Assembly: GCA_002786715.1 (NCBI GenBank)
Contig: PCTW01000061.1
Coordinates: forward strand, 1 to 64,000
Reading direction: 5' to 3'
DNA: 64,000 nt
Source: Bdellovibrio sp. CG22_combo_CG10-13_8_21_14_all_39_27
GTDB taxonomy: Bacteria; Bdellovibrionota; Bacteriovoracia; Bacteriovoracales; Bacteriovoracaceae
In this document: positions 27,226-39,410 of the stretch, piece after piece
Numbering within the stretch: the first letter of the stretch is position 1
Layout of the letters: each line of letters starts with the position of its first letter
The notes under the pieces: generated by a model
What the model was told of the DNA's origin: nothing
What the model saw: only the letters and a program-made list of their open reading frames with translations
Databases searched by the model: none
Made by a program: the position numbers and the translations under genes

Positions 27226-27254
27226 TTGGAATATCAAGAGCATTGTGCTTAAAT
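27226..27254 (+). promoter_or_regulatory. Candidate promoter of the urate-catabolic operon
   Basis: TTGGAA (27226-27231) and TTAAAT (27249-27254) are separated by 17 bases, each matching the sigma70 consensus at 4 of 6 positions. The transcript would begin near 27261, which argues that puuD starts at TTG 27285 (or GTG 27273) rather than at TTG 27243. Confidence 0.4.
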
Positions 27255-27284
27255 CATTCATTCAATTTACGAGTGAGTTATGCT

Positions 27285-28940
27285 TTGAGTCAAGAGTTCT
27301 TCGATTGGTTGCTATTATTAGGTCGGTGGTTGCACATCACGGTTGCCGTGACGTGGATTGGAACCAGCATTTTCTTTATGTGGTTGGACCGTACTTTTTC
27401 ACCTAATCCTAATAACCATCGAGAAGGTCACGTTGGGGATCTTTGGATGGTTCATGGTGGCGGCTTTTATCAAGTAGAAAAAATGCTGATGGGGCCAACT
27501 AAAGCGCCAGAACATTTGCATTGGTTCAAATGGGAGAGTTATTGGACTTGGATCAGCGGTATGTTTTTGCTGATTCTCACTTATTATTCTGGAGAAGGAA
27601 CTTTTCTTCTCGACTCAAGTGTTTCCTCGATTACTTTTTATCAAGGCATCGCCATCGGACTTGGTACCATTTTTGGGACTTGGTTTCTCTATGACTTTAT
27701 TTGGGAAACCAAGCTCAGTCGCGAAGTTCCCGAACTTTGTCATATCATCACCATGATTATTTTCTTTCTGGTAACAGTCTTCCTTTGTAAGACGTTAAGT
27801 GGTCGCGCCGCTTATATTCATGTGGGTGGGATGCTCGGAACTTGGATGGCCGGTAACGTTTTCATGCGAATTATTCCTCGCCAGCTCAAAATGGTTGAGG
27901 CATCGAAGGTTGGGACTCCGGTTAATCAAGAGTGGGCGAAGAATGCCAAAAATCGCTCAACCCATAATACTTATTTTACTCTGCCCGTTATTTTCATCAT
28001 GCTCTCCAATCATTTCCCTATGACCTATGGGCATGATTTGAATTGGCTCATTCTCCTCGTGATCAGTGCTGCAGGAGCAGCGATCAGACAATATTTTGTT
28101 ATTCGTTTGAAGAAGCCAAAAAATGCTAAGATATTTGCTGTTATTGGAGTGCTTATTCTTCTCGGTCTGATTGTTGCAACATCGATGAATTCGTTGATGC
28201 CTAAAACTGATCATCATACCGATTCTCATAAGGGACCTGTCAGTTTGGCGACTCCTTACCAGGAAGATGCAGTTGATGCTTCAACCATTAAAGATGAGTT
28301 TGTTGCAACCGTGAAAGGAACAGTTTCCTTTAAGGGTATTGTTCCTCAAGGCAAAAAATTAAGGCTACCAAGTGCCTGTGCTAAACAATACCCTGGCGAC
28401 GTTTATTCAGATGAAATTAAAGTAAATAATGGTCATCTGCAAAATGTGTTGATTCGTATTTCAAAAGGGTTGGAAAAACGCATTTACAAAGATGTTCCGC
28501 AACAGGCAGTTGAAATTGATCAACGTGGATGTATATACCTGCCGAGAGTTTCAGCGGTGAGAATTGGACAGCCTGTGGCTTTTATCAATTCAGATCCTGT
28601 CGTGCATAATGTGAAGTCATTAACTAAAAATAATCAAAGCTTTAATTTGATGATGCCTAAGCAAGGGCAAAGAGAAGAGAAGAAGTTTGATCAAGCCGAA
28701 CTTTTGCTTGAGACCAAATGCTCGTTTCATCCATGGATGAGTTCTTATATTGCCATTCTCGACCATCCTTTTTTTGCTATTACAAAAGAAAATGGAAGTT
28801 TTGAAATTTCCAATTTGCCGAAAGGTACATATACGCTTGAAGCCTGGCACGAAGTTTTAGGAACGCTAACACAAGAGATTACAGTTACTGACTCAAAAGA
28901 TATCAATGTACATTTTACCATGGAGAGAGGGGAGAAATGA
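27285..28940 (+). CDS. puuD: Membrane urate oxidase PuuD with a C-terminal cupredoxin domain instead of cytochrome c
   Basis: A 551-residue protein that oxidises urate to 5-hydroxyisourate at the inner membrane. The N-terminal ~320 residues match the PuuD/Urate_ox_N membrane domain: WLHITVAVTWIGTSIFFMWL, MVHGGGFYQVEK, HLHWFKWESYWTWISG and eight or so TM helices. Canonical PuuD ends in a cytochrome c domain with CxxCH; none exists here. Instead the last ~200 residues carry a type-1 copper site: His441 (FINSDPVVHNV) and Cys479-x-x-His482-x-x-Met485 (TKCSFHPWM). A peptidase-regulatory-like beta segment follows (FEISNLPKGTYTLEAWHE). Electrons would pass to copper rather than haem. The start is a TTG, chosen from family N-terminus and promoter position; upstream TTG 27243 is an alternative. 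Overlaps uraH by 4 nt. Confidence 0.85.
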   Translation: MSQEFFDWLLLLGRWLHITVAVTWIGTSIFFMWLDRTFSPNPNNHREGHVGDLWMVHGGGFYQVEKMLMGPTKAPEHLHWFKWESYWTWISGMFLLILTYYSGEGTFLLDSSVSSITFYQGIAIGLGTIFGTWFLYDFIWETKLSREVPELCHIITMIIFFLVTVFLCKTLSGRAAYIHVGGMLGTWMAGNVFMRIIPRQLKMVEASKVGTPVNQEWAKNAKNRSTHNTYFTLPVIFIMLSNHFPMTYGHDLNWLILLVISAAGAAIRQYFVIRLKKPKNAKIFAVIGVLILLGLIVATSMNSLMPKTDHHTDSHKGPVSLATPYQEDAVDASTIKDEFVATVKGTVSFKGIVPQGKKLRLPSACAKQYPGDVYSDEIKVNNGHLQNVLIRISKGLEKRIYKDVPQQAVEIDQRGCIYLPRVSAVRIGQPVAFINSDPVVHNVKSLTKNNQSFNLMMPKQGQREEKKFDQAELLLETKCSFHPWMSSYIAILDHPFFAITKENGSFEISNLPKGTYTLEAWHEVLGTLTQEITVTDSKDINVHFTMERGEK

Positions 28941-29260
28941 TTAGTACTCACATACTCGACACAAGTAATGGCAAACCTGCTGCTGAGATTCCTGTACGTC
29001 TCGAACGGTTTGAAAACGAAACTTGGAATCTGATTGATGAACAGTCATCAAACGGAGATGGAAGAATTGTTTTTAACTGCCCATTCGAAGAAGGTGTCTA
29101 TCGCTTGCTCTTTGAAATTGACGCCTATTTTGAAAAAAATAACCAAGATCATTTTTTCTTAAGAACTCCCGTGGTTTTTAAAATCACCGACGTGAAACGA
29201 AAATATCATGTGCCTTTGCTTTTAAATCCTTATGGCTACTCTACTTACCGAGGCAGTTAA
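28937..29260 (+). CDS. uraH: 5-hydroxyisourate hydrolase (transthyretin-like)
   Basis: A 107-residue HIUase converting 5-hydroxyisourate to OHCU. The full family signature is present: STHILDTSNGKPA with His5, Arg43 in GDGRIVF, His91 in KYHVPLLLNPYGYSTYRGS, including the C-terminal Y-R-G-S. It has no signal peptide, so it acts in the cytoplasm. ATGA overlap with puuD and 5 bases before the fused enzyme place it as the second step of the operon. Confidence 0.95.
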   Translation: MISTHILDTSNGKPAAEIPVRLERFENETWNLIDEQSSNGDGRIVFNCPFEEGVYRLLFEIDAYFEKNNQDHFFLRTPVVFKITDVKRKYHVPLLLNPYGYSTYRGS

Positions 29261-29265
29261 TTTCT

Positions 29266-32200
29266 ATGAGCTTTGAAATTCCTTATTATAGCGATTATCT
29301 CTCTAACCAATTGAAAGACCATTTGCTGTCCAAAGCGAAGCCTCTCTTTGGAATAGAAGGGCTTTCTTTGGTTGGAGAAAGTGGAGGCCTTGAAAATAAA
29401 GCAGCCATGCAGTTCTTAGTTGATCTCTATGGCGAAATTCAACCAAGTCTCGCCCTCGTTTTGAAAAAACGAATGGAAGATCGGGTCTTTATTGATGAAC
29501 GAACTCGCTCTTGTGTGGAATTTAATAAAACTTTGAAAAATGATTTTCAAACGAGTGAATATAAAACGTTATTAGGGGAGCGTGACAGTAACGGCCGAAT
29601 TGTGATTGGCCCTCATACTGAAAATTATGTAACGAGTGTTGGCAAAAAACCAGTAGCTCCTATCCCTGATTATTTACAAGGTCCCCATGTCACCTTGTTT
29701 GGTCCACCCGATAGCGAAAAAATGTGTGTGAATGCCATGAATGCTTTTCACCGCACCGTGAAGAATGAGCCGGCCATCATCAAAGAGTTGGTTTCTAAAG
29801 TTAAATATACTCCCAAATGGGGTGCGGATAATGAAGATTCAAAAACCCCTCTTCATCGCGATTTTCAATCGGCAGGGGTTAATTTATCACGATCACTCAG
29901 TCACGACCTCGACTTCACTGATGAAAGAGGGAAGCGCTATCAACTAGAGAATGATCACCTCTCGCACGCCATAAAAAGATTTCCAGGATTGGCACTACCG
30001 AGCTTTTTTCTTTTTTATCGAAATGAACCGGTGCCTTTGCATGTTTATGATTTTGCTCTCCATATGTTTGAAAATTGGAACAATAAAGAAGCCTTAGTTT
30101 TTTATGTTCCTAAATTAGAAAACGAAGAAGAAGCAAAATACATCAAGCTGATGATGGAGACAGCTGAGAGCTTGATGAAGAAAGTTCACCCCGAGTATCA
30201 AATGGGAACCATTCGTTTGATGATCGTGCTTGAAAACCCCCGTGCCGTTTTTCGAGTGAATGAGATAATGGATGAGCTCTATCCTTACTTTGTCGGAGCT
30301 TCTCTCGGTTGGCATGATTATTTAGGCTCTACGGCCAGACTTTTTAAAGAAGATCCCAATTACCGAATTCCTGTCAAGGCCGATCCAGATATCGTGATCA
30401 AATATATTAAGGCTTCTCATCGCTTGCTCGCCGATGTGGTGGGTGCAAGAGGCGGAATTAAAGTTGGAGGGATGTACGGCATTCTGCCAACGACCTATGA
30501 TATCGATACAGCTTCTTTTCAAGTGACCATGGTTGGTTATATTCGCGATGTCATAACTCAGATGAAGCGCGACCTGACTGGCTTCTGGGTGGCCCATCCC
30601 GATTTTGTTCGCATCGGAATGGCCTTAGTCGAAGCTTGGAAAATCTATCAAAAAGGTGATTTTAGTAAACTCGAATCCTTAGTCAAAAGCTTGCTGCATG
30701 AAAAACACCACAAACCGGTGCTCGATTTTATTTTGGGTGATGATATCGAGGGACTTGATACTCACGATCCTCTTTATGCTCGCTCTCTATTGGTTGCCGA
30801 TGTTGGAACTTCTAATATAGTGGCCAATAACGATCCTTGGGAAATTCGCTATAATGTTTTTCAATCACTTCAATACATAACTGATTGGCTCAGTGGAAAT
30901 GGATGCGTTGCTCTTCCGACAAATATTGGAGGTGAAGCAGTTCGTATCATGGATGATTTAGCTACGGCCGAGCGCTCTCGTTGGGAAGTCTGGCATGAAC
31001 TTTATCACGGACGATTTGATCTTTTTGAATTTCTGAAAATTGCTCACGAAGAACTGCATTTCATTCGAAAAGATTTATCTGACTCTAAGAAAATAGTTCA
31101 AGTGAAGTGGAATGAGCAAAATGCCAAGTGGTACCCCGTTGCGATGAAGATCATGCTGAAGCTGATGACAGATAAACGCCCCGCTGAATTTGCCACTGAA
31201 GTCTTATTACCTTTTACAATTGATACGATTCGCAATAGTAATGATCCTTGGAAGGCCGCTTGTGGCATTGATCCTGTGAAATTTGCCATTGATCCCGTTA
31301 TCTTAAAATTCAATTACTATTTTGAGCGCTGTGGAGACTTGTCGTTCGCAAAAGCTTTGGCCAAAGATAATCTGGTAGATTTAAATAAAGTAGAAAAGCT
31401 TATCTTGAGCTTCAATCTGTCTCAAATTCAATCGGCTGCCAGTTTTCACGGAGACATCGGAGAGTCTAAGAAAACACTCGATGCCATGGCTTCAAAAGAA
31501 CAAGCTCTTGTCTTTAATGAAGAGGCGAGTATCCTCGCTGAGTTAAAAACACTGGGACAACAGTATCTCGATCAATTTGGCGTAAAGTTTCTCATCTCAG
31601 CGAAAGGAAAATCAGGTGGTGAACTATTACAAGCCTTAAAACAGAGAATAGTAGGAACAAAAGAGCAAGAGTTGCAAAATGCCCGAATCGCTCTTTTTGA
31701 AATTACCAAAAAACGCATGTTAGATGAGCCATTGAATGAACTCTCAAATAAAATTCTTAAGCTAAAAGAAAAGTTCAATGTTCATTCGCTTCAGGTTGCC
31801 ATAACCGAGCAAGGTTCAACTCAACAAATGAGTTTTGGAGTCGATTCGTATTTTGAAATAGCTTCTCTTTCAAAAACAATAGGAACGACAATTGCTCTTG
31901 AGATCTTTAGAAAAGAAGGAATACCTCTTACATCCAAAGTAAATGAGTTGTTGAATAACTATCAATCTTCTTTTCAAATTCCTGATGGGAAAGATGTAGA
32001 GCTGACCCACTTAATGAATCACACCGCTTTAAATATGCATTATGTAAATGGAGTTCCTTCAAACATTGATATGCCTGCGATAGATCAATTTTTAACGGGA
32101 CTTGAGCGCTATGGTTATGAACCAGTTCGAGCTTTAGGGAATCCTGGTCAACAATTTCACTACTCAGGTGCTGGCTTTATTGTTCTGGAATATTTACTTG

Positions 32201-33897
32201 AGCTCATTTCTAAAAAGAAGTTTTGTGACCTGCTAAAAGATTTTACTCAGCAGTTTCAATTGAAAGGTTTGATTAGTGAGAATGAAGCGAAACAATTTTC
32301 AATTGCCACAGGTTATCGTGATAGCGAAGAAGAAGTCCCAAGTGGACGTCTTATGTTTCCAAGTATTGCGGCTGGACTTTTAGGCACGGCCACTGGCATG
32401 CAAGAGTTCTTACAGCTTTTAACTAAGGCCCATTCAGACATCAATCATCCCTTGCATGATACAGCTACTCAAATGCTATTGGGAGAAGATTGGGGAAGTC
32501 GCACTTTTATGGGCGTTGATATGGGACTCGGTGTTTTTATCGGAGAGTGTGGTCCAAATAAAGTGATGATCCATCAAGGGGCCAATGATGGTTACCGTGC
32601 GCTCTTTTTTCATTGCTTTCAAGGGCCAAATCGCGGAACAGGCTTTACTTTGCTAGGTAATGGAGAGCTTAATAATGTTTTTCTCAATGCTCTAGTCGCT
32701 CAAGAGATTTTAAAAGAGCTTAAGTTTGATGGAATAGATTTTTCACAATTTAATTTGCGTTTTGATCCAAGTAGCTTAAAGCAAGAAGAAATCGTCAACT
32801 ATGGTTATAAAAAACTGGTATTTGATGCTTTTCAGCCGGATCTTCCAGAAGTTTATCAACATGAAGAATTAGATCCTTTGTGCGGGTATAATCATCTGGT
32901 TGGAGCAGATATCATTGAAGTTTCAAATCAAAAATTTGCTCGAGCAGAAAATGTCATTTCTCCTTATGTCCCTCTTTTTGATCCCACTTATTTTGGTCGT
33001 CAAGGTAAGGTGATGGATAGTTGGGAAACTGTTCGTCACAATACTAAAGGCGTTGAGCGACTCCTCTTAAAGATGGAATTTCCTGTTAATGTCGAATATG
33101 CCTCAATCTGTACTAAATATCATCACGGCAATCAGGTTCAAGAAGTTGAGCTGCGAGGACAAAATGTTAAGGGAGAATGGCTTGATCTCCTTCCAAAGAC
33201 CTCTATGGAAGGCCATTCGTTCCGAAAAATAAAATTAAATCAGATTTATCGCGATATTAAGTTTGTTCTCGTTTTAGCATATCCCGATGGAGGGCTCACA
33301 CGACTTGGGCTTTATGAGATGATTCCATCAGAATTTCAAAATGAATTTGATGGAAAACTTCATCAGTACAAAGAAAAAATTCCGGCGACGTTAAAACCGC
33401 TCAGCCTTCATATCGATATCACACCAGATTTTATTAAAAGACAGTTTTCTAAACTTAAAATCGGTGATCTCTATGATGCAGCTTCTATGGCCTTTGGTGG
33501 AAAAATTGTGAAAAGTAGTAATGAACATTATGGCCCAGCTGCTCAAGTGATTTCGCCCTTTGCCCCCATTAATATGTTTGATGGCCTAGAATCGGCCCGA
33601 AGTCGAATAGCAGGTAATCACGAAGAAGTGGATATTGCTCTGGCAAAAACCACAAGCATTGAATCCATTGAGTGTGATTTCACTTATTTTGTGAACAATA
33701 ACCCAATGGATATGGAAATTTTAGGATTGAGTAAAGGCCAATGGATCAATCTTATGAAGAAACGCAAAGTGAAGGCTTATGCGGGAAATAAGATGAGAAT
33801 TTGCATAAACTCGCAAGAATTGTTTGAACAAATTAAAGTAAAATGTTTTCCCGATGGAGGATTGAATCGAATCCATGTCTTCGCCAAACACTCCTGA
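29266..33897 (+). CDS. Fused ureide-pathway mega-enzyme: malate-synthase-like / OHCU decarboxylase / serine hydrolase / double allantoicase
   Basis: One uninterrupted 1543-residue frame. Residues about 1-625: malate synthase A family (FGPPDSEKMCVNAMNAF, VPKLENEEEA, GTIRLMIVLENP with Glu322, GWHDY with Asp351, VAHPDFV, GNGCVALP, MDDLATAERSR); the RPRGWH segment is diverged (RFPGLAL). About 685-818: OHCU decarboxylase UraD (His728 in FHGDIG, SKEQ at 743-746, QRIVGTKEQEL). About 835-1165: serine beta-lactamase-like hydrolase (Ser867-x-x-Lys870, Tyr966-Ser-Gly, His1103-Gln-Gly). About 1190-1540: two allantoicase domains (GKVMDSWETVRHN, AYPDGGLTRLGLYE; GKIVKSSNEHYG, CFPDGGLNRIHVF). Together these cover OHCU to allantoin, allantoate to ureidoglycolate, and glyoxylate to malate. 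Domain calls are solid by motif; activity of the first and third domains is inferred. Confidence 0.85.
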   Translation: MSFEIPYYSDYLSNQLKDHLLSKAKPLFGIEGLSLVGESGGLENKAAMQFLVDLYGEIQPSLALVLKKRMEDRVFIDERTRSCVEFNKTLKNDFQTSEYKTLLGERDSNGRIVIGPHTENYVTSVGKKPVAPIPDYLQGPHVTLFGPPDSEKMCVNAMNAFHRTVKNEPAIIKELVSKVKYTPKWGADNEDSKTPLHRDFQSAGVNLSRSLSHDLDFTDERGKRYQLENDHLSHAIKRFPGLALPSFFLFYRNEPVPLHVYDFALHMFENWNNKEALVFYVPKLENEEEAKYIKLMMETAESLMKKVHPEYQMGTIRLMIVLENPRAVFRVNEIMDELYPYFVGASLGWHDYLGSTARLFKEDPNYRIPVKADPDIVIKYIKASHRLLADVVGARGGIKVGGMYGILPTTYDIDTASFQVTMVGYIRDVITQMKRDLTGFWVAHPDFVRIGMALVEAWKIYQKGDFSKLESLVKSLLHEKHHKPVLDFILGDDIEGLDTHDPLYARSLLVADVGTSNIVANNDPWEIRYNVFQSLQYITDWLSGNGCVALPTNIGGEAVRIMDDLATAERSRWEVWHELYHGRFDLFEFLKIAHEELHFIRKDLSDSKKIVQVKWNEQNAKWYPVAMKIMLKLMTDKRPAEFATEVLLPFTIDTIRNSNDPWKAACGIDPVKFAIDPVILKFNYYFERCGDLSFAKALAKDNLVDLNKVEKLILSFNLSQIQSAASFHGDIGESKKTLDAMASKEQALVFNEEASILAELKTLGQQYLDQFGVKFLISAKGKSGGELLQALKQRIVGTKEQELQNARIALFEITKKRMLDEPLNELSNKILKLKEKFNVHSLQVAITEQGSTQQMSFGVDSYFEIASLSKTIGTTIALEIFRKEGIPLTSKVNELLNNYQSSFQIPDGKDVELTHLMNHTALNMHYVNGVPSNIDMPAIDQFLTGLERYGYEPVRALGNPGQQFHYSGAGFIVLEYLLELISKKKFCDLLKDFTQQFQLKGLISENEAKQFSIATGYRDSEEEVPSGRLMFPSIAAGLLGTATGMQEFLQLLTKAHSDINHPLHDTATQMLLGEDWGSRTFMGVDMGLGVFIGECGPNKVMIHQGANDGYRALFFHCFQGPNRGTGFTLLGNGELNNVFLNALVAQEILKELKFDGIDFSQFNLRFDPSSLKQEEIVNYGYKKLVFDAFQPDLPEVYQHEELDPLCGYNHLVGADIIEVSNQKFARAENVISPYVPLFDPTYFGRQGKVMDSWETVRHNTKGVERLLLKMEFPVNVEYASICTKYHHGNQVQEVELRGQNVKGEWLDLLPKTSMEGHSFRKIKLNQIYRDIKFVLVLAYPDGGLTRLGLYEMIPSEFQNEFDGKLHQYKEKIPATLKPLSLHIDITPDFIKRQFSKLKIGDLYDAASMAFGGKIVKSSNEHYGPAAQVISPFAPINMFDGLESARSRIAGNHEEVDIALAKTTSIESIECDFTYFVNNNPMDMEILGLSKGQWINLMKKRKVKAYAGNKMRICINSQELFEQIKVKCFPDGGLNRIHVFAKHS

Positions 33898-34789
33898 ACA
33901 GGAACATATTGTTGAACGTGCAGTAGGGCTTTCCTTGATTGAAGTCTTTCTCGGTACTTTTCTTCATACTTTTAAAATTCCTTTTGCTGGTCATTTCTTG
34001 TCCCTCAATCAAGGACTCTATCTCACTCGAATGACTGAAGTCGGCCAATCGCGTTTTAGCGTTGCCAAAAACTGTTTCGAAGTTTCAGTGGTTGCTGCCA
34101 TGATGAAAACCTTAGCGCCTTCGGTTAAAAAATTGGGACCGATGATAAGTATTTCAACCCAAGGATTTCTATATGCCCTAGGACAAGTTCTTTTTGGGAC
34201 AAAAACGATGGGACAGATTATTTCCATGGTCTTGCTCTCTCTCTGGGCCTTCGTTCAGCCTCTTATCACTTATTATATTATGTATGGTTCTGACTTAAAA
34301 CGGGCCCTCATTTACTTTGCCGAAAAAGTACAATCAGGACTTTCAATTCCAGAGGAGTTCTTTTGGGGATTTTTTATCGCACTTATCTTAGTCAAATTAA
34401 CTTTCGCAACTTCGGTTCCTTTTATAGTTAAAAAAATGGAAGGGTCCTTGCTAGATCGTTTTGAGCAATTCTTAAAATCATTTAGTCGTGTGAAGAAAGA
34501 GGCGACATCTAGATCACCATTACATGGTGCCTTTATGGATCTTTTGCGTCCCTCAGTCGTTTTTTCAATAGTGATGATGGGAGTCTTTTTTAGTTTTAAT
34601 GGATTGGACTCGGCTTTGGTGGTTTGGAAACTCTCACGTGCAATTTCTATCGCCTTTCTTCTCTTTTATTTGGCGCGAACACCTATCGCATCAAGATTCT
34701 TCTTTAAACTCGCGCGAAAGCATCCAAGCTTTGAACGGCTCTATCAAATTTCATCTCTTGCCTATAAAGAACTAAGGGCGAGACTTTAG
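33875..34789 (+). CDS. Multi-pass membrane protein, candidate purine/ureide or urea transporter
   Basis: A 304-residue inner-membrane protein with about six TM segments. The first half (LIEVFLGTFLHTFKIPFAGH, FLSLNQGLYL, TQGFLYALGQVLFGTK) resembles S-components of ECF vitamin/purine transporters in hydrophobic pattern. The second half adds further TM helices and a basic C-terminal tail. I do not recognise a precise family. It overlaps the mega-enzyme gene by 23 nt, so it belongs to the urate operon; a GGAGG 14 nt upstream is distant. Uptake of a purine base, or export of the urea or ureide product, is inferred from context only. Confidence 0.6.
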   Translation: MSSPNTPEQEHIVERAVGLSLIEVFLGTFLHTFKIPFAGHFLSLNQGLYLTRMTEVGQSRFSVAKNCFEVSVVAAMMKTLAPSVKKLGPMISISTQGFLYALGQVLFGTKTMGQIISMVLLSLWAFVQPLITYYIMYGSDLKRALIYFAEKVQSGLSIPEEFFWGFFIALILVKLTFATSVPFIVKKMEGSLLDRFEQFLKSFSRVKKEATSRSPLHGAFMDLLRPSVVFSIVMMGVFFSFNGLDSALVVWKLSRAISIAFLLFYLARTPIASRFFFKLARKHPSFERLYQISSLAYKELRARL

Positions 34790-35557
34790 CCAGGCATCAC
34801 GGACTGTTAGCAATTCTGCTACAATGCTGATAGCGATTTCCTCGGGATCATTGCTTCCAAAAGAAAGACCAATTGGAACTCGCAGCTTTTTTAAAAAGTC
34901 TGCATTAACATCAAGAGCTTGAAGTTCGGTCCTAAGGGCATTTCCCTTGCTCTCAGAGCCAATGGCTCCAACATAAGGAGCATTGGGAAAATGCTTAGCG
35001 ATCTCTCGAAGAACAGGAACATCAGAGGTATGGCCTTTGGTTACTGAAATAAAAAAAGTATTAGAGTCGAAAGAGGCTACGGCCTCTTCAGGTTTATCAA
35101 ACTGAAGTTTTTTGAGTTTAGAGTTGGTAGGCAATTGATCGAGCCATACACTTCGATCATCAATTACTGTTAGCTGACATTTTAAATTTATCAGCGCTCT
35201 GGTGAGAGCTTGCGAGACGTGACCTGCTCCAAAGAGCGCCAGTTTCCAAGATTGAAAAGCAAAATGTTCAAAGAGAAAGGTGACTTCTCCACCACAAGTC
35301 ATCTTAATATCTTTTTGTAAATTCCATGTGATTGTTTGGGGAGCTTTCTGATGAGATTGACCTAAAATTTCTTGAGCATACTTTTCGCAGGCTGCCTCCA
35401 CTTTTCCACCACCAACTGTTCCTGCTTCTAATCCCTTGGCAGAGAAAAGGGCCTTCGCTCCAAGATCTTGAGGAGCAGATCCGCGAACAGCAATAATGGT
35501 TGCAGTGACGAAACTACAATTAAGGTCTGTGAGTTCCTGAGCGCGTTTGAAGATCAT
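34772..35557 (-). CDS. xdhC: Xanthine dehydrogenase accessory protein XdhC
   Basis: A 261-residue chaperone that binds molybdenum cofactor and promotes its sulfuration and insertion into XdhB. XdhC features: AVRGSAPQDLGAKAL, GTVGGGKVEAAC with the conserved Cys, MTCGGEVTFLFE, a Rossmann motif LALFGAGHVSQALTR, and a C-terminal IGLSFGSNDPEEIAISIVAEL. The start overlaps the xdhB stop (TAATG), so xdhA-xdhB-xdhC are coupled. Its end overlaps the convergent membrane protein gene by 18 nt. Confidence 0.9.
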   Translation of the reverse strand: MIFKRAQELTDLNCSFVTATIIAVRGSAPQDLGAKALFSAKGLEAGTVGGGKVEAACEKYAQEILGQSHQKAPQTITWNLQKDIKMTCGGEVTFLFEHFAFQSWKLALFGAGHVSQALTRALINLKCQLTVIDDRSVWLDQLPTNSKLKKLQFDKPEEAVASFDSNTFFISVTKGHTSDVPVLREIAKHFPNAPYVGAIGSESKGNALRTELQALDVNADFLKKLRVPIGLSFGSNDPEEIAISIVAELLTVRDAWLKSRP

Positions 35558-37974
35558 TAAGCATCCCACATTTTAAAAAGATCAGGGTGAATATTTCTCA
35601 GGATCTCTTCATTCGTCGCTGGAATTTTTATTTGCGGAGGTGCCGACTCAAAATGCGGAAGTGACATCAAGGCATTGTTAACGGCCGCCCACACACTCAA
35701 GGCCAAAAGAAGGGGAGGTTCACCCACTGCTTTCGTTCCGCGAACGTTAGCATAATTCTCTTCATTCTCAAGGAGCTTAATGCAAAAGTGCCTTGGAGTA
35801 TCTTGGACACTTGGAATTTTATAAGTGCTTGGTGCGTGAGATAACAGAAGTCCTTGGTCGTTATAAAAAAGATTTTCAGTTGTGACCCAGCCCATGCCTT
35901 GAATAAAAGCACCGGCCACTTGGCCAATGTCGAGAGCTTCATTCACTGGGCGCCCTAGATCCATCAGAATATCAGTGGCATCAACTTTAAGCTCACCTGT
36001 ATCTTTATTTAAAGTTACTTCCGAACAAGCAACACCTTGTGTGAAATAGAGAAAAGCATTTCCTTGGCCACTGAGTTTGTTAAATTCAATCCCTGGAATT
36101 TTATAATGGGCATAGTCAGAGAGACCAATGCGATTGAGATAGGCTTCAAGAATGAGATTTGAGAAAGCTATCTTCTTTTCAGGTTGATCTTCGTGGTAAA
36201 CCATTCCGTCCTTAAATAGGATTCCGAAATAAGTGGCAATTCCCGTCGGCCAAATAGCTCCTTCATTAGGATCATTAACATCGAGATTCGGTTTTTCTAA
36301 TTCGATTTCCGGTTCCGTTCCTAGACCTGCCGTTTTCGAAGCCCATCGATCAGATGGAGTCTTGAGCAGCTTCGAAGCAAACTCACTTAAACGAAACTTG
36401 ATTTTTCGAGTAGCGAGTAAGGCCGCTGCACCGTTGAGATCTGTTCCTGAAGAAGCAGCAGTTGGAGAGGTATTGGCATTTTTATCAGTACGAGTGGGCA
36501 TAACTCTGGCCTGATGGCGTGGAAGGCCCAATTCACTGGTCACCATTTGGGAAATGCGGGCATTCACTCCCTGGCCCATCTCGGTGGCTCCGGTTGAAAT
36601 TTGAAGCGAACCGTCTTGGTGAATAATCACCATCGCATTGGCTTGATTTAAAAAACGAGTGGTAAATGAAATGCCAAACTTCACGGCCGTCATGGAGAGG
36701 CCTTTTATATACTGATGATTCTCGCGATTAAACTTTTGAATCGCTACTCTTCGCGCTTGATAATTGCAATCCGCTTCTAGTTTTTCAAAAAGCTTAGGCA
36801 GGCAATTGTTTTCAAATTTTTGACCATAATGGGTCATGTTGCGATTTTCAATATCGGAGTAAACATTGAGCTTGCGAATCTCAAGCGGATCTTTGTTTAA
36901 AGCATGGGCGATACGCTCAATGATTAATTCAATGGTCGCGACACCTTTGGGGCCACCGAAACCTCTGAAAGCTGTATGAGGGTGATGATTGGTTTTGCAA
37001 ACTTGTCCGGTCACATGCATATGCGGAATATAATAAGCATTATCGGAGTGAAGCATTGCTCGTTCCATAATGGAAGTCGAAAGATCGGCGTAAGCACCTG
37101 CATCTGAGTAAAGCTGAACATCAAGTCCTAAGATTCGACCATTTTCATCAAAGCCCACTTCAAAATCATTCTCGAAGGGATTGCGCTTTCCAGTCATGAT
37201 CATGTCATCGTCTTTAGTGAGGACGATACGAACAGGACGATTGAGTTTTTGTGCACAAAGAGCGGCCATGGCTGCGAAAGGCGCCGCTTGCGATTCTTTT
37301 CCTCCGAATCCTCCTCCCATGCGCTTCACAATACAAACCACATCTTTGTCGGGAATGCCTAATGCATGAGCGACCACGTGTTGAGTTTCAGTTGGGTGTT
37401 GAGAAGAAGAATGTATTTCGATTTGCCCATCTTCAAGGGGATAAGCAATCGAGACTTGGCTCTCAAGATAAAAATGATCGGCACCCTGTATGGTAATGCG
37501 ACCAGAAAGTTTATGAGGTGCAGACTTGATAGCCTCTTTAGCGTCGCCACGCTTAATGAAGCGAGCATCGGCAATAAATGATTTTTTACTGCGAGCTTCT
37601 TGAATAGACATGACCTTCGGAAGGTCATTGTATTCAATCTCCACCAATTGCTTGGCCCTTTGGCAGTCGGCCAGATCAGAGCCTACGATCAAGGCAATGG
37701 GTTCACCTGCAAACTGGACTTTATCTGTAGCAAGCAGTGGTTGGTCTTTAAAAATCGTTCCCCACAAATTATGGTGAAGATCGTGACCAGTAAAAACGGC
37801 GACGATATTTTTGTGTGCGAGCACTTTATCAAACGATATTTTTTTAATTTCAGCATGAGCACGAGTTGAATAGAACACATCGACGAAAAGTTCATTTTTT
37901 AAGAGTGGACGGTCATCGACATACTCGCTCAGACCTTGAACATGGTTATGGGCACTATCATGAGGTAATTTCAT
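35557..37974 (-). CDS. xdhB: Xanthine dehydrogenase, molybdopterin-binding subunit
   Basis: An 805-residue subunit holding the Mo cofactor, oxidising hypoxanthine/xanthine to urate. Recognisable are the N-terminal beta-barrel-type domain (AHNHVQGLSEYVDD), RMGGGFGGKESQAAPFA, HTAFRGFGGPKGV with the substrate-binding Arg, ATEMGQGVNARISQM, and GTKAVGEPPLLLALSVW with the catalytic Glu. Length is normal for bacterial XdhB. It overlaps xdhA by 4 nt and xdhC by 1 nt. Confidence 0.95.
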   Translation of the reverse strand: MKLPHDSAHNHVQGLSEYVDDRPLLKNELFVDVFYSTRAHAEIKKISFDKVLAHKNIVAVFTGHDLHHNLWGTIFKDQPLLATDKVQFAGEPIALIVGSDLADCQRAKQLVEIEYNDLPKVMSIQEARSKKSFIADARFIKRGDAKEAIKSAPHKLSGRITIQGADHFYLESQVSIAYPLEDGQIEIHSSSQHPTETQHVVAHALGIPDKDVVCIVKRMGGGFGGKESQAAPFAAMAALCAQKLNRPVRIVLTKDDDMIMTGKRNPFENDFEVGFDENGRILGLDVQLYSDAGAYADLSTSIMERAMLHSDNAYYIPHMHVTGQVCKTNHHPHTAFRGFGGPKGVATIELIIERIAHALNKDPLEIRKLNVYSDIENRNMTHYGQKFENNCLPKLFEKLEADCNYQARRVAIQKFNRENHQYIKGLSMTAVKFGISFTTRFLNQANAMVIIHQDGSLQISTGATEMGQGVNARISQMVTSELGLPRHQARVMPTRTDKNANTSPTAASSGTDLNGAAALLATRKIKFRLSEFASKLLKTPSDRWASKTAGLGTEPEIELEKPNLDVNDPNEGAIWPTGIATYFGILFKDGMVYHEDQPEKKIAFSNLILEAYLNRIGLSDYAHYKIPGIEFNKLSGQGNAFLYFTQGVACSEVTLNKDTGELKVDATDILMDLGRPVNEALDIGQVAGAFIQGMGWVTTENLFYNDQGLLLSHAPSTYKIPSVQDTPRHFCIKLLENEENYANVRGTKAVGEPPLLLALSVWAAVNNALMSLPHFESAPPQIKIPATNEEILRNIHPDLFKMWDA

Positions 37975-39410
37975 ACTTGAACCTCACTGAAAAAGCGCCG
38001 GAGATAATTGCTCATGAGAACTCGGCGATAGCTGGCCGAAGCTCTGACATCGCTGAGAGGCTTGAACTCGGAATGAGCAATTTGAATGGCCTGATCAATC
38101 ATGGCGGCATCAAGTTTTTTGCCCATGAGAAACTGTTCTGTTTTCTTCAAGCGAAGAGGAATGGCCGCGATTCCTCCTGCTGCAATTGTAATTTGTTTGA
38201 TCGTGCCAGCATCGGCAGAAGCTAAAATACCAAGATTGACGGTAGAAATATCTAAGTCTTTTCGAATGCTCGTTTTATATAATTTCAAAATTTGATTTTT
38301 TTCTGGAAGCTTAAAACTTATGGCCGTTATCAATTCATCTTTGGCCTTTGCCGTTTTGCGATAATCGAGAAAGAATTCATGCAAAGGGATTTGCCTTGAA
38401 CCTTTAGTCGATTGCAAATGTATTTCTGCATTCAAGGCCAGAAGAGCTGGTGGAGTATCCCCAATGGGTGAGGCATTGGCCACATTGCCGATGACTGTTG
38501 CATTGTTTTTAATTTGGGGAGATGCAAAGAGGTCAATGTAATGCGCAAGCTCAGGAATTTTGTTTTTTACGAAATGGCGAAATTCATTGATCGTCACTCG
38601 TGCGCCAACAGTGATGATATTTTTGTCTTCAGTGATAGCATAAAAATCATTGATCAAATGAAGACTCATCAAACGGGTTAATTCTAATTTTCGTTTGTTA
38701 TGAACGACTCCTAAATCGGTTCCCGAAGCGATGATGCGAACATCTTGATGGGAACTTAAATAGTCACAGGCTTCTTGTGCTGTCTTGGGGGCAAAGTATT
38801 GATACTCACTATTTTCTAGTCCGACACTTTGATTAAAGACGGACTCAAGTTCTTTTTGAATTTCTGCCGAATGGTAGCGGTCTTTTAAGCTTTTCTCTTT
38901 AGTGAGGTCCATTTTAGTACCGGCAGTGATAATCGCTTCATAGCCAGTACAGCGACAAAGATTTCCAGTGGTCGAATTTTTACATTCTTTTTCGGAAATT
39001 ACTTTTTCATTGCGAGAAAGTTTTTCTTCGCAAAGTCCGGCGTAGGCCATGACAAAACCAGGGGTACAAAAACCACACTGACTGCCATGACAATCAACCA
39101 TGCTTTGTTGGGATTCATGCAAACGCGAATCATCTTTCAACGATTCAACCGTTAAAACATGGGAGCCATCGAGTGTTGCGACTGGTGCTAAACATGAATT
39201 GATCGCGAGAAAGCGATCGGCGTCAGTTCCCTTAGAGTGCGGGAAATAGCGAAGAACGCTACAGGCTCCGCAGTCACCTTCGGCACAAACCACTTTGGTT
39301 CCGGTCAAAGATTTTTGATAACGAAGATAATCAGCCAGCATCATCGAAGCATCGGCTGCTTCGACATCACAACGCTGACCATTGAGGTAAAAAGTTATTG
39401 TTTTTCGCAT
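37971..39410 (-). CDS. xdhA: Xanthine dehydrogenase small subunit (2Fe-2S and FAD domains)
   Basis: A 479-residue subunit. The N-terminal plant-type ferredoxin domain has Cys42, Cys47, Cys50 (CAEGDCGAC) and Cys73. The second [2Fe-2S] domain has CGFC at 112-115 and CRC at 152-154. The FAD-binding domain follows (VIGNVANASPIGDTPPALLA) and the CO-dehydrogenase-like C-terminal domain ends the chain. It passes electrons from Mo in XdhB to FAD and NAD. First gene of xdhABC; no Shine-Dalgarno precedes the ATG, which is close to a strong -10 box. Confidence 0.95.
   Translation of the reverse strand: MRKTITFYLNGQRCDVEAADASMMLADYLRYQKSLTGTKVVCAEGDCGACSVLRYFPHSKGTDADRFLAINSCLAPVATLDGSHVLTVESLKDDSRLHESQQSMVDCHGSQCGFCTPGFVMAYAGLCEEKLSRNEKVISEKECKNSTTGNLCRCTGYEAIITAGTKMDLTKEKSLKDRYHSAEIQKELESVFNQSVGLENSEYQYFAPKTAQEACDYLSSHQDVRIIASGTDLGVVHNKRKLELTRLMSLHLINDFYAITEDKNIITVGARVTINEFRHFVKNKIPELAHYIDLFASPQIKNNATVIGNVANASPIGDTPPALLALNAEIHLQSTKGSRQIPLHEFFLDYRKTAKAKDELITAISFKLPEKNQILKLYKTSIRKDLDISTVNLGILASADAGTIKQITIAAGGIAAIPLRLKKTEQFLMGKKLDAAMIDQAIQIAHSEFKPLSDVRASASYRRVLMSNYLRRFFSEVQV

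Follow-up and report, generated by a model that had tools for sequence, protein, structure and literature searches.

A four-domain fusion within a purine degradation locus

The window, as the whole stretch of DNA analysed here is termed, comprises 64,000 nucleotides of contig PCTW01000061.1 from Bdellovibrio sp. CG22_combo_CG10-13_8_21_14_all_39_27. It encodes a single-chain protein in which a malate synthase, a UraD domain, a serine beta-lactamase-like domain (BLac) and an allantoicase follow one another in an uninterrupted frame, without an internal stop (Table 1). Within this protein, the Pfam matches above cut-off cover residues 239-453 (MS_TIM-barrel) and 526-644 (MS_C) of the malate synthase, and the best of the Allantoicase repeats corresponds to residues 1213-1350. 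Inspection by eye found no signal peptide at the N-terminus (MSFEIPYYSDYL...). The locus is linked to urate degradation by the presence of uricase, HIUase, UraD and allantoicase, and the xanthine dehydrogenase genes lie beyond the fusion on the opposite strand. Between these, a gene for a 304-aa protein (33875-34789, + strand) overlaps the end of the fusion gene, starting 23 bases inside it; the product has no Pfam match, and appears hydrophobic by eye.

Table 1. Features of the purine degradation locus, with positions in the window
Feature	Position (residues)	Strand	Evidence or remarks
PuuD-type membrane urate oxidase	27243..28940	+	PF06181 350.5 bits; blue-copper-like domain replacing cytochrome c
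HIUase (5-hydroxyisourate hydrolase), TTR family	28937..29260	+	PF00576 116.8 bits; TIGR02962 above cut-off
Four-domain protein, 1543 aa	29266..33897	+	malate synthase - UraD - BLac (serine beta-lactamase fold) - allantoicase
Malate synthase domain	29266..31335 (~1-690)	+	PF01274 77.5 bits, PF20659 36.4 bits, both above cut-off
UraD (OHCU_decarbox) domain	31384..31719 (707-818)	+	PF09349 62.2 bits, cut-off 24; allantoin-making
BLac domain, proposed allantoinase	31729..32841 (822-1192)	+	PF00144; AlphaFold2 model
Ser867-Leu-Ser-Lys870, proposed nucleophile and general base	31864..31875	+	S and K in 65/65 visible genomes, g9 excluded
Asn923-x-His925, family-specific, proposed substrate contacts	32032..32040	+	N923 64/65, H925 65/65
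Tyr966-Ser-Gly968, proposed proton relay	32161..32169	+	Y966 66/66, g9 excluded
His1103-Gln-Gly1105, KTG/HTG counterpart	32572..32580	+	65/65, g9 excluded
Allantoicase domain, two repeats	32902..33885 (1213-1540)	+	PF03561 137.7 bits, cut-off 27; allantoate-consuming
XdhC	34772-35569	-	xanthine dehydrogenase genes 34772..39410
Xanthine dehydrogenase molybdopterin subunit	35557-37974	-	
Xanthine dehydrogenase small subunit	37971-39410	-	

The urate oxidase differs from the published PuuD, for which the accessible text describes a strictly conserved CXXCH motif (PMC4562309), in having a blue-copper-like domain where a cytochrome c would be expected; the protein in the window contains no CxxCH. 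Its C-terminal part (approximately residues 343-565) consists of a type-1 copper-like domain (H455, C493-SFH-PWM), which was modelled with a pLDDT of 91.5, followed by a CarboxypepD_reg-like part. Fifty PuuD-like open reading frames were found by pattern in the loci, 42 of which have the copper motif, five neither motif, and three CxxCH, these being L200 of genome G154 and the overlapping L078 and L089 of G075. The H, C, H and M residues are invariant among the 37 rows of the corresponding profile (A4), which matches a blue copper protein (E 6e-7) and amicyanin.

A missing ring-opening step in the host genome

In this pathway, UraD makes allantoin, allantoinase converts it to allantoate, and allantoicase consumes the allantoate. 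As uricase, HIUase, UraD and allantoicase are all present, allantoinase is the missing step, that which opens the ring. The allantoinases known to us belong to two unrelated families, AllB and PuuE. AllB is described in the accessible text of one article as a binuclear metal enzyme with a carbamylated lysine (PMC9863593), and PuuE, which is recruited from the polysaccharide deacetylases and is the subject of a 2008 paper cited there, provides a precedent for a non-homologous allantoinase.

The initial annotation, made from the sequence alone, had noticed that a metal-dependent allantoinase was absent from the window, and this absence holds throughout the host genome, which is 99.78% complete. 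The highest score for the AllB model (TIGR03178), that of the dihydroorotase-like protein discussed below, was 127.6 bits (cut-off 357.85); the best match to the PuuE model (TIGR03212), on a contig (C64) other than that carrying the fusion, scored 29.3 bits, against 424.6. All PF01979 matches were inspected, and comprised guanine-deaminase-like, imidazolonepropionase and dihydroorotase-like proteins, a NagA in two contig pieces, peptidase-like and deaminase-like amidohydrolases, and one spurious match, by eye an IMP dehydrogenase. The dihydroorotase was considered as a candidate allantoinase and set aside: its top model was that of dihydroorotase (219.7 bits, cut-off 279.05), with just 127.6 bits for AllB, suggesting it does not have this role. 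A search of the genome for AllB and PuuE, which the annotation had named as one check on its proposal that the serine hydrolase fills the gap, was negative.

A conserved serine hydrolase between UraD and allantoicase

The BLac domain matches the Pfam Beta-lactamase family, PF00144, over residues 839-1135 (62.4 bits, cut-off 27). The motif set of this superfamily is SxxK, Tyr and [KH]xG, and these occur in BLac in the characteristic order as S867..K870, Y966-S-G968 (for Tyr-x-[N/S/G]) and H1103-Q-G1105 (for [K/H]xG). All three are located at exactly the residue numbers initially assigned to them; the span originally given to the domain, 31768-32760 (residues 835-1165), lies within BLac, and the Pfam order of domains agrees that a serine hydrolase is placed between UraD and allantoicase. 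BLac shares its fold and motif set with the class C-type hydrolases of PF00144, but differs in being only 16-18% identical to them, in residing in what is probably a cytoplasmic metabolic fusion, and in its proposed substrate, a hydantoin. It is further distinguished from them by the stretches H919-x-A-x-N923-x-H925-Y926-V and HQGANDG.

Conservation was counted across the 67 fusion genomes found by profile, excluding genus g9, using only residues that lie on a contig. On this basis, Ser867, Lys870, His919, His925, Tyr926, Tyr966, His1103, Gln1104, Gly1105 and Arg1111 show no variation in any of the 65-66 genomes in which they are visible. This has a bearing on whether BLac might be a catalytically idle scaffold, as could be imagined for a domain positioned as a linker between UraD and allantoicase. 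However, such a domain would not be expected to keep Ser, Lys, Tyr and HQG unchanged wherever they can be seen in these genomes, making a purely structural function very improbable.

AlphaFold2 modelled residues 822-1192 with a pLDDT of 96.8 and a pTM of 0.94. The best match of this model among solved folds is the IS11 esterase (7spn; VIA Z 34.0, 329 aligned residues, rmsd 2.8), followed by a Pyrococcus PBP homologue (2qmi, Z 33.8), LACTB (7v21, Z 32.1), a D-amino acid amidase (2drw, Z 31.9) and the R61 DD-peptidase (1hvb, Z 31.2), with ClbP (7mdf) also among the matches. Overall, Z ranges from 31 to 34 and rmsd from 2.8 to 3.1 A over 305-329 residues, at 16-18% identity. The nearest solved folds are thus esterases, peptidases, amidases and beta-lactamases, with no allantoinase among them. 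A sequence search of solved structures with BLac returned only remote members, and tblastn against plasmids only distant serine hydrolases, at 20.7-26.7% identity among the 15 of 16 matches listed. The four-domain protein as a whole has no match to the AllB (TIGR03178) or PuuE (TIGR03212) models at E<=0.1.

Membership of this superfamily, together with a weak score of 31.9 bits against the class C beta-lactamase model (NCBIfam NF033085), might be taken to indicate a role in beta-lactam resistance or in the cell wall. That score is far below the cut-off of 415, BLac has HQG in place of KTG, and the domain appears to be cytoplasmic, since it is part of a protein that contains malate synthase and has no visible signal peptide; hence such a role is scarcely credible. 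The replacement of KTG by HxG is the pattern of DD-peptidases and D-aminopeptidases, and fits the cleavage of an amide rather than an ester.

Recurrence and genomic context of the fusion

A scan of genome contigs identified 79 loci, of which 78 are members of the family and one (L168) is a distant relative only. The same four-domain order is found in one open frame at 67 of the 78 member loci, a recurrence that means the fusion did not arise by chance; at the other 11, the protein is cut by a contig end (seven loci) or interrupted in frame (four loci). The interruptions, in L120, L134, L153 and L164, fall in UraD or BLac, and are either real breaks or assembly errors.

When 679 open reading frames from 60 fusion loci were clustered, the genes beside the fusion were those for HIUase (50/60 loci), PuuD (45/60), the molybdopterin and small subunits of xanthine dehydrogenase (24/60 each) and XdhC (20/60). 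No non-purine gene was conserved in these surroundings, the next cluster being present at 7 of the 60 loci. This context bears on the possibility that BLac is an esterase, peptidase or amidase for some other substrate, carried as a passenger in the fusion, while the allantoinase is an unknown non-homologous gene. The leading fold matches (IS11 esterase, the Pyrococcus PBP homologue, LACTB and D-amino acid amidase) are of the kind this would predict, but the conserved neighbours are purine genes alone, the postulated gene must be supposed missing or superfluous in every genome with AllB, and the active site of BLac is altered in the genus that acquired an AllB-UraD protein. Hence a passenger with another substrate is quite unlikely.

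Planctomycetes and a few other groups are among the labels of the loci. Neither AllB nor PuuE exceeded its cut-off in any of the 33 further fusion-bearing genomes searched (0/33 for each), which correspond to 33 of these 79 loci and include planctomycetes, and some of which duplicate the phylum set (e.g. G390 and G347). The tree unites the planctomycete rows with their close relatives in a 14-member clade (support 100/99) nested within those of Bdellovibrionota, and it is therefore likely that the fusion was transferred to planctomycetes.

Mutual exclusion of BLac and the known allantoinases

The two known allantoinases were searched for across 368 genomes of the phylum. Allantoicase is encoded by 96 of these, and is of the BLac-allantoicase type in 70, the BLac profile (A1) having matched 72 genomes at E<=1e-15, from which G078 and G030 were dropped as weak paralogues. 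AllB exceeded its cut-off in 23 genomes, and PuuE in one (G030, which lacks the fusion). All 70 BLac genomes and all 23 AllB genomes fall among the 96 with allantoicase. Three incomplete genomes at first seemed empty; at a lower threshold, AllB pieces were recovered from contig ends in G306 (312 bits) and G363 (309 bits), and another was seen in G154 (281 bits).

With g9 set apart, AllB or PuuE occurs in none of the 67 fusion genomes versus 25 of the 26 genomes that have allantoicase but no BLac, with a Fisher p of 8.6e-22 (7.0e-18 before the AllB pieces were counted) that is optimistic, as related genomes are not independent. Since BLac is fused to allantoicase, this exclusion compares alternative gene sets, rather than genes free to vary separately. 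Full AllB accounts for 22 of these 26 genomes, AllB pieces for two and PuuE for one, with nothing found in the last, G148, which is 62% complete. Restricting the comparison to genomes with a listed completeness of 90% or more and contamination of 5% or less gave 0/39 with the fusion and 17/17 without. The same split is repeated in several families, and the genera g154 and g165 each contain one species of either type.

AllB, a member of the cyclic amidohydrolase superfamily, would resemble BLac in reaction and place in the pathway, with a mutually exclusive distribution, while being metal-dependent and of unrelated fold. PuuE likewise has a different fold, but shares with BLac the property of being, on our reading, an allantoinase not homologous to AllB.

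Altered BLac in a genus with AllB

Genus g9 (G008, G154 and G155) is the only genus in which both BLac and AllB are found, the latter in two of its three genomes; AllB was not found in G155, which is 68% complete. In G008 (L070 3874-5730) and G154 (L242), AllB is part of an AllB-UraD fusion protein that adjoins HIUase, which is itself another joining of the steps that flank allantoin. The BLac of this genus is still joined to allantoicase. The malate synthase is a separate protein (visible in G008 and G154), and the fused UraD has been lost (visible in G154 and G155; off contig in G008).

The active site of BLac is altered in g9. HQG has become HHA in all three genomes, Tyr966 is replaced by Phe in G154 and G155 (the position being off contig in G008), and residues 923 and 925, elsewhere Asn and His, are E and N in G154, and D and G in G155. 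Relative to 64 intact sequences, changes affect 9/37, 7/37 and 4/18 of the invariant columns visible in these proteins, versus 2/39 in the worst leave-one-out case among the intact sequences themselves. The allantoicase halves of the same proteins each have 1/36 invariant columns changed, and g9 malate synthase has 8-10% changed, such that the drift of BLac is partly general rather than exclusive to this domain. Ser867 and Lys870 are kept, such that the altered domain may not be completely inactive, which counts against the allantoinase reading. The g9 proteins branch from inside the clade of intact ones (70 rows, support 98/92). As the fused UraD is lost, and BLac altered, where AllB and UraD have arrived, the simple reading is that BLac formerly did the work of AllB.

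In G008, two class V aminotransferase-like genes lie beside the BLac-allantoicase gene (L071 1745-2872 and 5978-7126, + strand). They are nearest to glyoxylate or phosphonate aminotransferases, below the respective cut-offs, and transamination may be a fate of glyoxylate in g9.

The same genus, and the fusion genomes more widely, offer some grounds for the main rival explanation, in which BLac acts on ureidoglycolate or another late ureide, leaving the opening of the hydantoin to an enzyme not yet recognised elsewhere in the genome, or to a dihydroorotase or hydantoinase of promiscuous activity. The ureidoglycolate lyase AllA was found in only one of 78 genomes searched, which lacks the fusion; hence in the fusion genomes two steps, allantoinase and ureidoglycolate lyase, have no assigned enzyme, and BLac could supply the second. 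The malate synthase of the same protein requires glyoxylate, and in G155 an AllA-like gene (L202 3890-4468, - strand; best score 100 bits, cut-off 230) directly adjoins the altered BLac-allantoicase gene. However, AllA is also missing from nine of the ten non-fusion allantoicase genomes among the 78, and its absence therefore does not track the fusion, whereas that of AllB and PuuE does. Nor was AllA found in G008, which has both AllB and the HHA motif. In addition, a serine nucleophile would be better suited to opening an amide than to a lyase reaction, and BLac is placed between UraD and allantoicase in the fusion. A ureidoglycolate-directed activity is consequently unlikely.

A proposed serine allantoinase

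We therefore favour the reading, with a probability of roughly 80%, that residues ~822-1192 constitute a serine hydrolase, located in the cytoplasm and belonging to the class C beta-lactamase/DD-peptidase superfamily, that supplies the allantoinase step within a fused enzyme for urate degradation. That BLac may be a non-homologous allantoinase was suggested by the initial annotation on positional and chemical grounds, and it has gained strong support from three lines of comparative evidence: the exclusion of AllB and PuuE, the replacement in g9, and the invariance of catalytic residues together with the purine neighbours.

The substrate, the acyl-enzyme, the part played by each residue and any channelling from one domain to the next are inferred, the chemistry and residue roles by analogy with the superfamily. 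The neighbouring UraD domain would deliver (S)-allantoin to BLac, in which Lys870 would activate Ser867, with Tyr966 relaying a proton. Ser867 would then attack the C4 carbonyl of the hydantoin, expelling N3 and breaking the C4-N3 bond to give an allantoyl-serine ester, with the substrate held by His1103-Gln-Gly and the family-specific region around Asn923 and His925. Water would free allantoate, which the adjacent allantoicase domain would cleave, and the malate synthase domain would condense the resulting glyoxylate to malate.

It is also probable, with somewhat more reserve, that BLac represents a third class of allantoinase, one that needs no metal, as well as the first enzyme of the serine beta-lactamase fold to be assigned the opening of a hydantoin. 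It would do so within a single-chain line of UraD, serine allantoinase, allantoicase and malate synthase, leading from OHCU towards malate, that is widespread in one phylum and was probably passed to planctomycetes. In the open-access literature, as far as its text was accessible, no report was found of a serine or beta-lactamase-type allantoinase, or of a UraD-BLac-allantoicase-malate synthase fusion.

If this assignment is true, it would fill a gap in the pathway in dozens of genomes, and the hydrolysis of allantoin would have had a third independent origin. The reach of the beta-lactamase fold would extend beyond beta-lactams and peptides to natural hydantoins, offering a lead for metal-free hydantoinases. 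Furthermore, the unusual fusion of four enzymes in these bacteria would be explained.
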